The position numbers and the translations under genes were made by a program. The notes under the pieces were generated by a model that was not told the DNA's origin, did not search any database, and saw nothing but the letters and a program-made list of their open reading frames with translations. From Thermoclostridium caenicola (GTDB taxonomy: Bacteria; Bacillota; Clostridia; DSM-8532), in the NCBI RefSeq assembly GCF_900142095.1, contig NZ_FQZP01000008.1:1-64000 (forward strand): a stretch of DNA of 64,000 nt, in the 5' to 3' direction. Positions 55,231 through 59,552 of the stretch are shown here, piece after piece (within the stretch, counting starts at the first letter, position 1; each line of letters begins with the position of its first letter).

Positions 55231-55515
55231 TTATTGCACGAAGGATTGCCCTCTCACGAGTATGCCTCTTTTACCCCTTCCCTTAAGCAGGTCGTTCAGC
55301 ACCAGGTTGGCAATTTCAAGTTCCAGTTTATCCCTGTCCTTTTTGGGAAGGGTTTCGATTTTTCTTGCGGAGTGGTCGTCATAATTTATCTTAAGTTGTG
55401 GGTATTTTCTTACAATTTGGGCTATACCGCTGATGATGCCGCTCTCAGGAAAAAAGGAAAACTCAATAGTATAGTCGGGATCGTTTCTTTCCAGGATCCT
55501 GCCTCTGAAATTCAT
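55231..55515 (-). CDS. Unrecognised 94-residue protein downstream of a c-di-GMP riboswitch
   Basis: I do not recognise this protein. It is soluble: a beta-like N-terminal part (FRGRILERNDPDYTIEFSFF), then a short helix (IISGIAQIVRKY) and a long charged helix (KKDRDKLELEIANLVLNDLL) with a basic tail. The Shine-Dalgarno AAGGAGGA is strong, so the gene is real. About 310 bases upstream on the same strand lies a cyclic di-GMP-I riboswitch with its own promoter and terminator, and no other gene intervenes, so the protein is very probably part of the c-di-GMP response. It has no PilZ motif (RxxxR, D/NxSxxG). It converges with the sugar transferase gene, 70 bases away. Confidence 0.72.
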   Translation of the reverse strand: MNFRGRILERNDPDYTIEFSFFPESGIISGIAQIVRKYPQLKINYDDHSARKIETLPKKDRDKLELEIANLVLNDLLKGRGKRGILVRGQSFVQ

Positions 55516-55577
55516 TGCTATTCCTCCTTATAGAGCTACTGTTGAGGTTTCGCCATAAGCCAAAAAATCTGGCAAGC

Positions 55578-55728
55578 GGTATCCGGTGCTACATCATTTT
55601 CCAGGTTGTGTTGTGAGATCGATAGAGGATACTGCCGTCAAATTCCTGGAGCAAACGAATCACACTGCTTCGGTTCCCTTACAGGCCCAGCGCGTACCTT
55701 GAAGGCGGATGGCCTTTCCGGCTGGGCT
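55578..55728 (-). other. Structured leader segment between riboswitch terminator and the 94-residue gene
   Basis: The 255 bases between the riboswitch terminator and the gene hold no reading frame that I can support. They can fold: GCCCAGC (minus strand, 55721-55727) pairs with GCTGGGC (55685-55691) around an inner AAGGC/GCCTT hairpin. GTATCC (55627-55632) can pair with GGATAC (55579-55584) over a longer range. No known RNA family was recognised. Confidence 0.35.
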
Positions 55729-55770
55729 TGATATCGGATGTCCTGTTGCCAATCAATGTCGCGTTAGAGA

Positions 55771-55807
55771 AAGCAAAAGAGCCCAGGCAAATTTCTACCA
55801 TGGCTCC
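55771..55807 (-). terminator. Riboswitch-associated intrinsic terminator (94-residue gene leader)
   Basis: On the minus strand GGAGCC pairs with GGGCTC across a 17-base loop and is followed by TTTTGCTTT. A competing hairpin is possible between CCATAGG at the 3' edge of the aptamer and CCATGG in the terminator's left side. This is the layout of a termination/antitermination switch. Confidence 0.75.
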
Positions 55808-55828
55808 ATGATGGTTGTTGCACCACAA

Positions 55829-55925
55829 AACCTATGGCAACCCGACTGTCATGGCCAAAACGGCTTCAGACTCGTAGCTTTGCGACCCTGTTTTTCAACA
55901 AGTTTGCTTTTTTCATAAGATATAC
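55829..55925 (-). ncRNA. Cyclic di-GMP-I (GEMM) riboswitch upstream of the 94-residue gene
   Basis: Read on the minus strand, the GEMM elements appear in order: AGCAAACTTG, a GAAA loop in TTGTTGAAAAACAGG, the core GGGTCGCAAAGCTACGAGTC, AAGCCGTTTTGGCC, ATGACAGTCGGGTTGCC and closing CATAGGTT. GCAAAGC and the GACAG tetraloop-receptor neighbour are diagnostic. The RNA binds cyclic di-GMP and controls the downstream gene. It is about 80% identical to the second copy at 59393-59490. Confidence 0.9.
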
Positions 55926-55957
55926 AGTATCTAGCTCTTGGCATAAGCCGAGATGAA

Positions 55958-55986
55958 ATTTTAGCTGATTGTTGCCATTATGTCAA
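55958..55986 (-). promoter_or_regulatory. Sigma-A promoter driving riboswitch 1
   Basis: On the minus strand, TTGACA (55981-55986) and TAAAAT (55958-55963) are separated by 17 bases. The transcript would start just upstream of the GEMM aptamer. Confidence 0.78.
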
Positions 55987-56027
55987 TCAGTTTTAGGGAG
56001 AGAACCGGTTATGTCGGATATGTTTTT

Positions 56028-56819
56028 CTAATAATGCAGCTTGATGTCTAACACGTCGCATACGGTCTGCTGGGTGGGCAGAATCTGACCGTTGACGATT
56101 TCTGTTATGGAGGCCCCGGATACTTTTATGGTTAGTAGGTCCACGCCTTTTATGTCTACGTCAAAGTATTCCGGTACAATGCCTTTATAATGCGTTATCT
56201 TCTTCAGGGTTACCCCGTCCCCGATGATCTCCAGTTCACCCGTGCATTTTGTGCCTGTGCTGGCATCATCAATTCCGAAATAACCGGTTATTCTGGCATA
56301 TCGCCCACCCAAGGTATAGATGCCCCAGGTGGTGCTCAGTCCGTCGTTCAGGATCGTGCTCACCGACAGGTATTCCTTGCCGGCGATCCGCATGGTTCCG
56401 GCCTTGCTATAGCTTGTTCTGGCATGCTTATCATCATACACGGTCTTGACCCATCCGCCCATCATACCATACTGATTCCAGTTTTCTGACTTCAGCGCAG
56501 GGGTCAGCTCGGATAAAAAGATGGCGTTGATCTTCTGCTCATTTCCAAAATAAAGGGTGTTCCCGTCCCTTGTCATCTTCTTGTTCATCACGACGGTCAG
56601 GTACCGGATGGGAACATAGGTGGTTCCATCGATAATCAGGGGAGGCACGGGTCTGCCGTCCGCATCCCGGGGAAATAGTTTCACCCCGTCCAGCACAATA
56701 TCCACGCCACCCACAATGGCTGTGACCTGGCGGACAAATCCACTGTCTGCAAAGGCGTATAGCCCGGTAATGAGGAAACAGGCGCATAAAAAGCCCGATA
56801 CAAATGATTTGATTTTCAT
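56028..56819 (-). CDS. Secreted protein with stalk (copper amine oxidase-like N) and NPCBM-like domains
   Basis: A 263-residue exported protein. The signal peptide is KSFVSGFLCACFLITGLYAFA (about residues 5-25, split by a basic start). Residues ~30-95 form the copper-amine-oxidase-like 'stalk' domain (VDIVLDGVKLFPRD; IDGTTYVPIRYLTVVM). The C-terminal half, with GIYTLGGRYARITGYFGIDD, TGELEIIGDG and FDVDIKGVDLLTIKVSG, looks like an NPCBM/NEW2 carbohydrate-binding-like domain. GGAG precedes the ATG at 56819. It is divergent from the pseudokinase gene, which carries a similar NPCBM-like domain, and lies downstream of neither riboswitch. Confidence 0.75.
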   Translation of the reverse strand: MKIKSFVSGFLCACFLITGLYAFADSGFVRQVTAIVGGVDIVLDGVKLFPRDADGRPVPPLIIDGTTYVPIRYLTVVMNKKMTRDGNTLYFGNEQKINAIFLSELTPALKSENWNQYGMMGGWVKTVYDDKHARTSYSKAGTMRIAGKEYLSVSTILNDGLSTTWGIYTLGGRYARITGYFGIDDASTGTKCTGELEIIGDGVTLKKITHYKGIVPEYFDVDIKGVDLLTIKVSGASITEIVNGQILPTQQTVCDVLDIKLHY

Positions 56820-57134
56820 ACGCAATTCTCCTGAATATCCTAATGACCTATAACTTTTCTCTGTTCCGCAGGAGCCGGGGAGCATCAGGCCGAACGAAAA
56901 CGATCAGGCCTTGCAGAACTTTCCGAAAAAGGCGCCGAAGGCCCTGGACCAATCCTGCGGATGGATACGGATTATGACGCCTACATTATATTCCATGCTG
57001 CCCATGCATTCAATGAATTGGAAATATTGCCTGAAATTTATGCCTTTTGTGGACGTTTATTTATAATTGTATTAATCAGTAAAACAACCGTTTTCCCTGA
57101 CGGATTCTCTCGGCCTGCAAGGGGGTAGGAGGAA
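56820..57134. other. Divergent intergenic region between stalk protein and pseudokinase
   Basis: A 315-base region with no supportable gene. A TATAAT at 57062-57067 faces the pseudokinase, but no clear -35 accompanies it. It must hold promoters for both divergent genes. Confidence 0.4.
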
Positions 57135-58679
57135 ATGCTGAAAGAGAGGTTTGCCATTTTGCGTCTGAAAAAAGCAGGAGACAGCCAGGATGTGGGTTGG
57201 GCCGGTTCAAAGATCCCATGGACCTTTGTCATGCTGGACAAGCAGGATGTCCGCCAGGATCTGTTTACCGCATACTGCCGAATCAATCATCCCGCGTTCC
57301 CGCGGATTTTGGATATTAAAGAAGGGGATACCTACTATTGCGTCCTGAAGGAAAATATTCACGGAGAGAATCTGGAAGCCCGGCTTAACCGGGAGGGAAG
57401 GCTTGATCACGGGCAGGCCTCCAGAATTATCGGCGAACTTTGCAAAACCCTGGAATTTTTGCGTATGCTGAGGCCGGGAATTGTCTGCTACAGGGACATT
57501 GCCCTGTCCGATATCGTGCTGGATCACCAGGGCACGGTTAAGCTTATCAATCTGGAGAAGCTTATTCTGACAAAGGGTGATGGAGCTGATGAACCTACAG
57601 GGGATTTGCAGCAGGTCCAGAGCGTGGCGCTTTTATACTACCACCTGCTAACGGGAGTCAACCCCTGTGAAATCGAGGGCCACATACCGTCCTTTTCACA
57701 GCTCGGACTGTACCTTCCGGGCGAGCTGTTTGACCTCATCACCAAAGCGCTCAAACCGGATTCACCCATGAAAACGCTGGGCCACTTCAGAAAGGAAATA
57801 GAGAAGCTGTTTCCGCGCCGCTGCGAGGAACACGGAGACCAAAAAACACCTGCCAGGCGGCGTATAACCGGAAGGCAGGCCCTTGTCATTGCGGCCGTTA
57901 CCCTGGCTGTTTCGGCGGCGGCTGTACTGGCCTTCAAGCTGTGGGTGTTTGATGCCGCCAGCAGGGCTGAAAACAACGAAATAACGAGGCTTCTTGCATA
58001 CCGGGAGACCGCTGCGGCAGCTGAAGAAGCAAAGCATACCGATTTTTCCGGGGAGGAAGCAAATATCCTGAACCGGACCGAAACTATGGTAGCAGAGCCG
58101 GAACAACCGGTTCAGAATGCGGAAGAAGTATCACAAAGCACAGACGCCCATGAAGCCGGGCAAACCGCTGATAAAACTGATAGTAACTCTCTGCCCAAAG
58201 ACCGGAATGCACCGGCAAAAAGGCAAAAGGTGTATTTAAGCTCGCTGGAGCCCGCATCCTTCTCCGCGGGAAGCGACAGCTTCAGGCTTGCAGACCTGGA
58301 TGCGTCCGACAGGGATATCCAGGGCAACAGGTTTCAGGCGGGAATTAAGCTGGAACTCGTCGACAGCTACCTGTCAGATTATAAGGACCAATGGATGACT
58401 GTGGAGTACAACCTGGACAAGGGTTATTCCAGGTTCAGCTGCGTTTTTTCGGTCAGTCAGGCCTTTCAGCATATTGATCCCTCTCAAAAGGCCTGGCTCA
58501 ACATACTGGGCGACGGAAAACTCCTCCTGTCAACCGCATCCGTCGGATCCTCTTCCGGACCGGTGCGTATTGAAGCCGATATCAGGGGAGTGAAGAAGCT
58601 GACGCTACAGCTGAATCCCGCATCCCAATTTGTTGAAAATGCAGGCTATATTATCGGGGATCCTGTGCTGGAGCCATAA
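57135..58679 (+). CDS. Membrane pseudokinase with extracellular NPCBM-like domain
   Basis: A 514-residue protein. Residues 1-225 resemble a bacterial Ser/Thr kinase: YYCVLKENIHGENLEARL, then the catalytic-loop counterpart CYRDIALSDIVLDHQGTVKL (YRD in place of HRD, Asp retained, with DIVL where the Asn normally lies). The DFG motif is replaced by INLEK, and no clear beta-3 lysine is seen, so it is probably inactive. One membrane helix (about 247-270, ALVIAAVTLAVSAAAVLAF) leads to a low-complexity acidic linker and a C-terminal NPCBM/NEW2-like domain (about 390-512; YNLDKGYSRFSCVFSVS, WLNILGDGKLL, GVKKLTLQLN). The topology suggests an outside sugar sensor coupled to an inside pseudokinase. GTAGGAGGAA precedes the ATG. 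Confidence 0.72.
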   Translation: MLKERFAILRLKKAGDSQDVGWAGSKIPWTFVMLDKQDVRQDLFTAYCRINHPAFPRILDIKEGDTYYCVLKENIHGENLEARLNREGRLDHGQASRIIGELCKTLEFLRMLRPGIVCYRDIALSDIVLDHQGTVKLINLEKLILTKGDGADEPTGDLQQVQSVALLYYHLLTGVNPCEIEGHIPSFSQLGLYLPGELFDLITKALKPDSPMKTLGHFRKEIEKLFPRRCEEHGDQKTPARRRITGRQALVIAAVTLAVSAAAVLAFKLWVFDAASRAENNEITRLLAYRETAAAAEEAKHTDFSGEEANILNRTETMVAEPEQPVQNAEEVSQSTDAHEAGQTADKTDSNSLPKDRNAPAKRQKVYLSSLEPASFSAGSDSFRLADLDASDRDIQGNRFQAGIKLELVDSYLSDYKDQWMTVEYNLDKGYSRFSCVFSVSQAFQHIDPSQKAWLNILGDGKLLLSTASVGSSSGPVRIEADIRGVKKLTLQLNPASQFVENAGYIIGDPVLEP

Positions 58680-58693
58680 AGGACGGATTTTCC

Positions 58694-59302
58694 TCAGGCC
58701 TGGAACTCCCGTATCCCGGCGATGAATTTCCGGAACAATACCGGATCGAACTGATCCTGCATGTCTTTCATGATCTCCACCGCTTTTTCCGGGGTGTAGC
58801 CTTTCCGGTACGGCCTGTCCGATGTCAGGGCATCGTATACGTCGCAAATATGGATGATCCTGGCCAGTAAGGGAATTTCACCGGCAACAAGCCCCGAAGG
58901 ATAGCCCCCGCCGTTGTACTTTTCGTGGTGGTAGCGGACGGCTTCCAATACCGTATCGGAAAGCCCGGTATCCTTGAGCATGCGATAGCCGAACTCGGGA
59001 TGCATTTTCATGGCTTCAAACTCTTTTTCGTCAAGCTTTGACGGCTTGTTCAGGATCCCGTCATCAATGTGGTACTTTCCGATGTCGTGATACAGGCCCG
59101 CATAATACACGGTGGCCTGATCCAGGCCGCATCCTGATGATTCCGCAAACCGCACCGCGAGATTGGCTACGCTGAAAGAGTGCCTGTAAGTGACCGGATC
59201 AAGTTTTTTGAGTGTGCTGATGATGCACGTATCCTGCTTCAATTCCAAAATCCTTGTTTTCTCCAATTTCTGCTGCGTTCTTGTGTGCCGGACGGCACAC
59301 AA
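58694..59302 (-). CDS. HD-GYP domain cyclic di-GMP phosphodiesterase
   Basis: A 202-residue stand-alone HD-GYP protein, with no sensor domain. It shows HSFSVANLAVRFAESSG, the HD pair in GLYHDIGKYHIDDGIL, HPEFGYRML, YHHEKYNGGGYPSGL (the HHExxDGxGYP motif with N for D) and DVYDALTSDRPYRKGY. HD-GYP enzymes hydrolyse cyclic di-GMP to GMP. AAAGGAGG is eight bases before the TTG at 59302, which I take as start. The gene lies directly behind a cyclic di-GMP-I riboswitch and terminator, forming a feedback loop. It converges with the pseudokinase gene, only 14 bases apart. Confidence 0.9.
   Translation of the reverse strand: MCAVRHTRTQQKLEKTRILELKQDTCIISTLKKLDPVTYRHSFSVANLAVRFAESSGCGLDQATVYYAGLYHDIGKYHIDDGILNKPSKLDEKEFEAMKMHPEFGYRMLKDTGLSDTVLEAVRYHHEKYNGGGYPSGLVAGEIPLLARIIHICDVYDALTSDRPYRKGYTPEKAVEIMKDMQDQFDPVLFRKFIAGIREFQA
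59281..59302 (-). promoter_or_regulatory. Perfect hairpin at the HD-GYP start codon
   Basis: On the minus strand TTGTGTGCC and GGCACACAA form a perfect nine-base stem with a four-base loop (GTCC). The first three bases are the proposed TTG start codon. The Shine-Dalgarno lies just outside the stem. Such a helix should reduce translation initiation. Confidence 0.7.
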
Positions 59303-59342
59303 TTGTTGCGCCTCCTTTCGTATTTGAAAGTATACTGTATGC

Positions 59343-59382
59343 AAAAATAAAAGAGCCAGGACAAACCAATGCCATGGCTCTA
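59343..59382 (-). terminator. Riboswitch-associated intrinsic terminator (HD-GYP leader)
   Basis: On the minus strand AGAGCCA pairs with TGGCTCT and is followed by TTTATTTTT. TGCCATaGG at the aptamer's 3' edge is complementary to CCATGGCA in the terminator's left part, giving a mutually exclusive antiterminator. Confidence 0.82.
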
Positions 59383-59392
59383 CTACGCCCTA

Positions 59393-59490
59393 TAAAACCT
59401 ATGGCAGCCCGACTGTCATGGCCAAAACGGCTTTAGACTCGTAGCTTTGCGTCCCTGCCTTTCGGCAGGTTTGCCCTTGTACATGAGGTA
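59393..59490 (-). ncRNA. Cyclic di-GMP-I (GEMM) riboswitch upstream of the HD-GYP gene
   Basis: On the minus strand the whole GEMM consensus is present: GGGCAAACCTGCC, a GAAA loop closed by GGCAGG, the core GGGACGCAAAGCTACGAGTC, AAGCCGTTTTGGCC, ATGACAGTCGGGCTGCC. P1 is formed by ACCTcATG with CATAGGT. It senses cyclic di-GMP, the substrate of the enzyme it precedes. Confidence 0.93.
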
Positions 59491-59523
59491 TACAATATTC
59501 AACTATCGACACAAATCGATGTA

Positions 59524-59552
59524 ATTTTATCCAATCGGTTCGGAAATGTCAA
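59524..59552 (-). promoter_or_regulatory. Sigma-A promoter driving riboswitch 2
   Basis: On the minus strand, TTGACA (59547-59552) and TAAAAT (59524-59529) with a 17-base spacer, the same two hexamers and spacing as the promoter of riboswitch 1. The start would be near 59517. Confidence 0.8.

Follow-up and report, generated by a model that had tools for sequence, protein, structure and literature searches.

What would a bacterium gain from two sister c-di-GMP-I riboswitches standing before two genes of different kind? The question is raised by a 64-kb window (the whole stretch of DNA analysed here) of contig NZ_FQZP01000008.1 from Thermoclostridium caenicola (GCF_900142095.1; a draft genome of 2.89 Mb, 99.98% complete), in which a preliminary description had placed two such elements on the minus strand, each with a TTGACA-N17-TAAAAT promoter and an intrinsic terminator, before the genes of an HD-GYP phosphodiesterase and of a 94-residue protein proposed as a new c-di-GMP output. 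Our best explanation, to which as a whole we assign a probability of roughly 0.62, is that the two paralogous riboswitches would act as paired transcription OFF switches, closing a feedback loop around the phosphodiesterase and delivering the 94-residue protein as an output of the motile state. As far as we checked the open literature, the arrangement is new, and so are the GEMM-controlled branch of the unnamed small protein family to which the 94-residue protein belongs, the phosphodiesterase switch with its predicted self-locking and the divergence of the sister aptamers at position 20.

Two class I aptamers and the base at position 20

Running Infernal (cmscan) over the whole 64-kb window retrieved exactly two matches above the RF01051 threshold of 35 bits, both on the minus strand as had been described: aptamer 1 at 59400-59485 (85.3 bits, E 2e-15) and aptamer 2 at 55833-55918 (79.2 bits, E 6.4e-14). 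Both match the model end to end and carry GC before AAA within a GCAAAGC core, that is, the G21-C46 pair and the intercalating A47 in the numbering of Vc2 (PMC7288161, PMC9049102). At the level of sequence both elements are thus confirmed as ordinary members of RF01051, and binding of c-di-GMP is predicted. The contact residues published for Vc2 (G14 C15 A16 C17 A18 G19 ... G21, C46, A47; PMC7288161) place the base directly before GCAAA at G20, which is G in copy 1 (59475) and A in copy 2 (55908). Copy 2 departs from the family consensus at two places: Rfam column 11, where this A replaces G, and the GAC segment, where a U (55885) stands in place of A/G; the U occurs in no other of the 33 aptamers compared. 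A20 is shared by aptamer 2 with three others of the 33, one of them a degenerate third copy in T. caenicola itself; the base is not invariant within class I. Both substitutions, like the OFF polarity and the TTG start at 59302 discussed below, go beyond the preliminary description.

The A at 55908 brings in the alternative that copy 2 now responds to 3',3'-cGAMP, in the manner of GEMM-Ib, or to two ligands, in which case the two genes would answer different messengers. cGAMP is bound by a class I riboswitch carrying the G20A mutation (PMC7288161, PMC6274999), A20 is shared with the GEMM-Ib/3',3'-cGAMP riboswitches of Geobacter, and copy 2 has diverged faster, with 76% identity to the congener aptamer versus 86% for copy 1. 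On the other hand, the serine that marks Hypr GGDEF domains (PMC6456294) occurs in none of the 12 GGDEF matches of the genome, nine having D there and three being degenerate, a search of the same genome for a SMODS-type cyclase (PF18144) gave no match, and the congener orthologue controlling the same gene has G20. Given the lack of matches to either type of cGAMP synthase in this genome, an altered c-di-GMP threshold is the likelier consequence of A20, cGAMP sensing by copy 2 being possible though unlikely.

The third RF01051 match of the genome is weak (37.4 bits; L094:2265-2347, equivalent to G000:C50:8264-8346). It has A20, has lost G21, is followed after 83 nt by the gene of a methyl-accepting chemotaxis protein (MCP) and may be a decaying riboswitch. 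For the congener aptamers, clan competition listed RF03167 (c-di-GMP-I-GGC) instead; this assignment was rejected, as RF01051 scores higher (83.4 bits) and A47 is kept.

Promoters, terminators and a predicted OFF polarity

The promoters proposed for the two units are present on the minus strand at 59524-59552 and 55958-55986, each with 11 of the 12 consensus bases. Since a promoter scan gave similar numbers of candidate sites for the region and for shuffled sequences, the weight of these calls comes from conservation, identical hexamers with identical spacing being kept upstream of the orthologous cassette in two congeners (G003 and G004). The intrinsic terminators also hold, at 59348-59385 and 55776-55809 of the minus strand, with -16.1 kcal/mol each and 0/300 and 1/300 shuffles as good, respectively. 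Their loops are longer than 8 nt, so a simple terminator scan missed them and they were found by custom folding against shuffles; U-rich tails follow both, the second one (UUUUGCUUU) being weaker.

Both copies combine the terminator with a predicted antiterminator that uses the 3' strand of the aptamer. The stretch UGCCAUAGGUUUU, identical in the two copies, begins inside the aptamer 3' end and supplies the strand UGCCAU-A-GGUUUU (59394-59406, overlapping the 3' end of aptamer 1, and 55827-55839, both minus strand), which pairs with the terminator 5' arm, AGAGCCAUGGCA (59381-59370) in the first unit and GGAGCCAUGGUA (55807-55796) in the second. The predicted duplex has 12 base pairs and one bulged A in both copies, with -18.0 kcal/mol in copy 1 and -21.8 kcal/mol in copy 2; against dinucleotide shuffles, 1/1000 were as good in each case. 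The same pairing was recovered in the congener orthologue (0/1000) and in a related GEMM of G017 (9/1000), and it was not clear in the two switches of G282, a member of another clostridial family (188/1000 and 318/1000).

At low c-di-GMP the strand UGCCAU-A-GGUUUU would thus pair with the terminator 5' arm and let the polymerase read through, and at high c-di-GMP the aptamer would retain this strand, the terminator would form and transcription would stop. Both window switches should therefore be OFF, as ligand binding would hold the aptamer 3' strand and free the terminator. By thermodynamic folding the terminator and antiterminator states are nearly equal, a few kcal/mol apart in both window copies, so the polarity is read from strand logic and precedent; in the congener, the predicted energies favour the antiterminator state. 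The precedent comes from Clostridioides difficile, whose class I riboswitches were uniformly OFF when tested (PMC6200980) and whose Cd1 element (flgB), in a motility context, uses an aptamer-strand antiterminator of this kind (PMC9262584). The window differs from Cd1 in its targets, a predicted c-di-GMP-degrading enzyme and an unnamed protein. Class I ON switches do exist, for instance Bc2 and pilM (PMC6366702, PMC9262584), and the closeness of the two states in energy would also suit them; were this the case here, the phosphodiesterase would give ordinary negative feedback. The pairing of the aptamer 3' strand with the terminator 5' arm speaks against it, and we hold the ON polarity to be improbable.

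The 240-nt leader before the 94-residue gene showed no further Rfam match and no structure beyond that of shuffles (z +1.06) when searched for a second RNA element. A GEMM-I of G017 (L012:1400-1585), upstream of genes for a CheY-like regulator and an MCP, follows the UGCCAU antiterminator logic as well.

A predicted HD-GYP phosphodiesterase, probably under the control of its own signal

The first unit controls a stand-alone HD-GYP protein (58694-59302, minus strand), the identification of which was upheld by matches to PF13487 (1.5e-31) and HDIG (TIGR00277, 1.2e-11) and by the motifs YHDIGK (HD), HHE and GGGYP (GYP) in its translation. The open frame begins at 59344, and the TTG at 59302, behind AAAGGAGG, is the more likely start, giving a protein of about 202 residues. 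It shares domain and motifs with known HD-GYP phosphodiesterases, from which it differs as a stand-alone domain of about 200 residues placed under a riboswitch. GEMM elements also precede HD-GYP genes in two genomes of the same GTDB family, G006 (with A20) and G010 (with the frame split).

As a predicted c-di-GMP phosphodiesterase, the protein is expected to destroy the same signal that its riboswitch would sense. If the OFF polarity applies, the enzyme would be made only while c-di-GMP is already low, and the unit would form a double-negative loop stabilising the low c-di-GMP state, which suggests a self-locking switch into swimming. Placed before a phosphodiesterase gene, such an OFF switch would amount to an RNA-based positive feedback and a candidate basis for heritable motile and sessile states.

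It could be argued instead that these are two independent, ordinary GEMM-controlled genes, with no meaningful feedback and with the 94-residue protein as a minor accessory unlinked to the phosphodiesterase. The genome holds several other HD-GYP proteins besides its 12 GGDEF matches, so one enzyme may matter little, and the homologues of this HD-GYP protein found in the genus are only about 41% identical. Nonetheless, the two units share the architecture of promoter, aptamer and terminator, and shared wiring implies co-expression. We consider independence a real but minority prospect, perhaps the most serious competitor of the feedback reading.

A small unnamed protein family with a riboswitch-linked branch

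The second unit controls the 94-residue protein (55231-55515, minus strand), for which Pfam, NCBIfam, PHROGs and PADLOC returned no match. Its homologues nevertheless define a family, the core member of which (79-95 residues, mostly adjoining a DUF421 gene at the loci viewed) is present in 24 of the 33 genomes searched in the order, with GEMM at none of the 20 core loci scanned. A core copy is present in T. caenicola as well (C15, L075/L093). The 94-residue protein groups instead with two G282 proteins (36-44% identity) and the orthologues from congeners (51-54%) in a GEMM-controlled subclade found in this genus (three of five genomes) and twice in G282. A GEMM-I lies 95-320 nt upstream in 5/5 subclade loci versus 0/27 other family loci scanned, a comparison in which the Fisher test ignores relatedness and in which G003 and G004, 99.6% identical here, make one case. 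The grouping of the five GEMM-controlled proteins is moderately supported (86/83), so a single riboswitch acquisition by the subclade is no more than favoured. Because its relatives follow GEMM RNAs, the proposal that the 94-residue protein is a c-di-GMP-controlled output is supported by the homologue search, at the level of gene order.

A recent origin of the protein within the genus from the core copy was considered and is not favoured, the core copies forming their own clade (100/99) with the window protein outside; one joint clade of the family's proteins was not rejected (p-AU 0.19). Modelled with AlphaFold, the 94-residue protein (pLDDT 82.6) and the core protein (pLDDT 94.6, pTM 0.84) both have four strands and, after them, two helices. 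A search of solved structures with the two models gave no clear match, the best hits (an immunity protein each time, Z 7.2 and 6.8) lying inside the range expected without kinship. A likeness to SpoVG, suggested by the strand-helix order, was discarded (hhalign probability 0.1 over 3 columns, with a two-sequence SpoVG alignment). In searches of the genome contigs for related loci, the single protein query gave nothing and the alignment query gave only core-type relatives.

The G004 orthologue (L006:1501-1746) is almost the same as that of G003 but stops 14 residues short of it, which suggests that the C-terminal tail can be dispensed with. In G418 (L103/L105), two tandem divergent members of the family stand without GEMM beside a phosphoribosyltransferase gene, ComFC-like by eye, and a YvyF gene, a further link to a flagellar region.

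Motility rather than polysaccharide as the probable context

The preliminary description set the 94-residue protein beside a polysaccharide locus. The neighbourhood is real, but as a functional context it is the less well supported one, the polysaccharide genes being convergent on the unit and not co-transcribed with it. The window itself offers no direct link of the protein to flagella; the supporting contexts are those of its relatives. One G282 operon encodes, directly behind the 94-residue relative, CheX (PF13690, 8.9e-21) and a YvyF-like (TIGR03826) flagellar-region protein, and the other encodes a CheY-like receiver/regulator in that position; the 94-residue protein itself matches none of the CheX, CheY and YvyF families. 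In addition, two other GEMMs of the window's family precede an MCP gene (the weak third GEMM of this genome) and a CheY-MCP pair, and FlhA is encoded in the T. caenicola genome. With these contexts on one side and a convergent sugar transferase outside the unit on the other, a role in the motile or chemotactic state is better supported, by analogy with the relatives, than a role in polysaccharide synthesis.

The 94-residue protein would thus be made in the same low c-di-GMP state as the phosphodiesterase, most likely serving the motile, chemotactic state, and copy 2, with its A20, would probably switch at a different threshold. It is a probable low-c-di-GMP motility factor, and the GEMM-controlled subclade flags the unnamed family as one that could be tested for such a function in clostridia in which it adjoins CheX and CheY. 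It is tempting to speculate further on a two-input or two-threshold latch, in which copy 1 runs the self-locking phosphodiesterase loop and copy 2, now tuned to cGAMP or to another threshold, controls a new chemotaxis-state family acting with CheX/CheY; this elaboration we regard as rather doubtful.

In several genera of the family, genes of transglutaminase-like proteins whose N-termini resemble signal sequences lie behind two GEMM-I elements in tandem, spaced by about 100 nt (L018, L021, L022 and L027, with L032, L034, L035 and L038).

Origin of the paired cassettes

In G003 and G004 the gene order is GerA, GEMM, 94-residue gene and sugar transferase. The window has in addition, between GerA and the GEMM-94-residue unit, the GEMM-HD-GYP unit and two NPCBM genes, one between the two units (57135-58679, plus strand; NPCBM 1.6e-9, Pkinase below cut-off), which lies outside the mechanism, and a neighbour upstream of unit 2 (56028-56885, minus strand; NPCBM 4.3e-8). 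Because the congeners hold the GEMM-94-residue pair directly between GerA and the sugar transferase, this pairing appears to be the older one within the genus, with the HD-GYP unit and the NPCBM genes as apparent additions. Copy 1 is 86% identical to copy 2 and 85.5% to the congener aptamer, and the four aptamers of the genus form one group in the tree (91/78); a tree in which only the two window copies pair is neither supported nor rejected (p-AU 0.38). The idea of a duplicated regulatory cassette therefore stands, but not that of copies simply placed in front of unrelated genes, given the older pairing that congener synteny indicates. On the simplest reading the T. caenicola lineage duplicated the cassette and copy 2 changed faster; alternatively, the congeners may have lost the HD-GYP unit. 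Sister aptamers differing at the specificity base would constitute a natural experiment in riboswitch tuning after duplication.

Besides the NPCBM domain, the protein encoded at 57135-58679 has part of a kinase-like domain and probably a transmembrane segment. G004 carries in addition a c-di-AMP (ydaO) riboswitch (L096:874-1025, 96.5 bits) about 8.4 kb from its GEMM.
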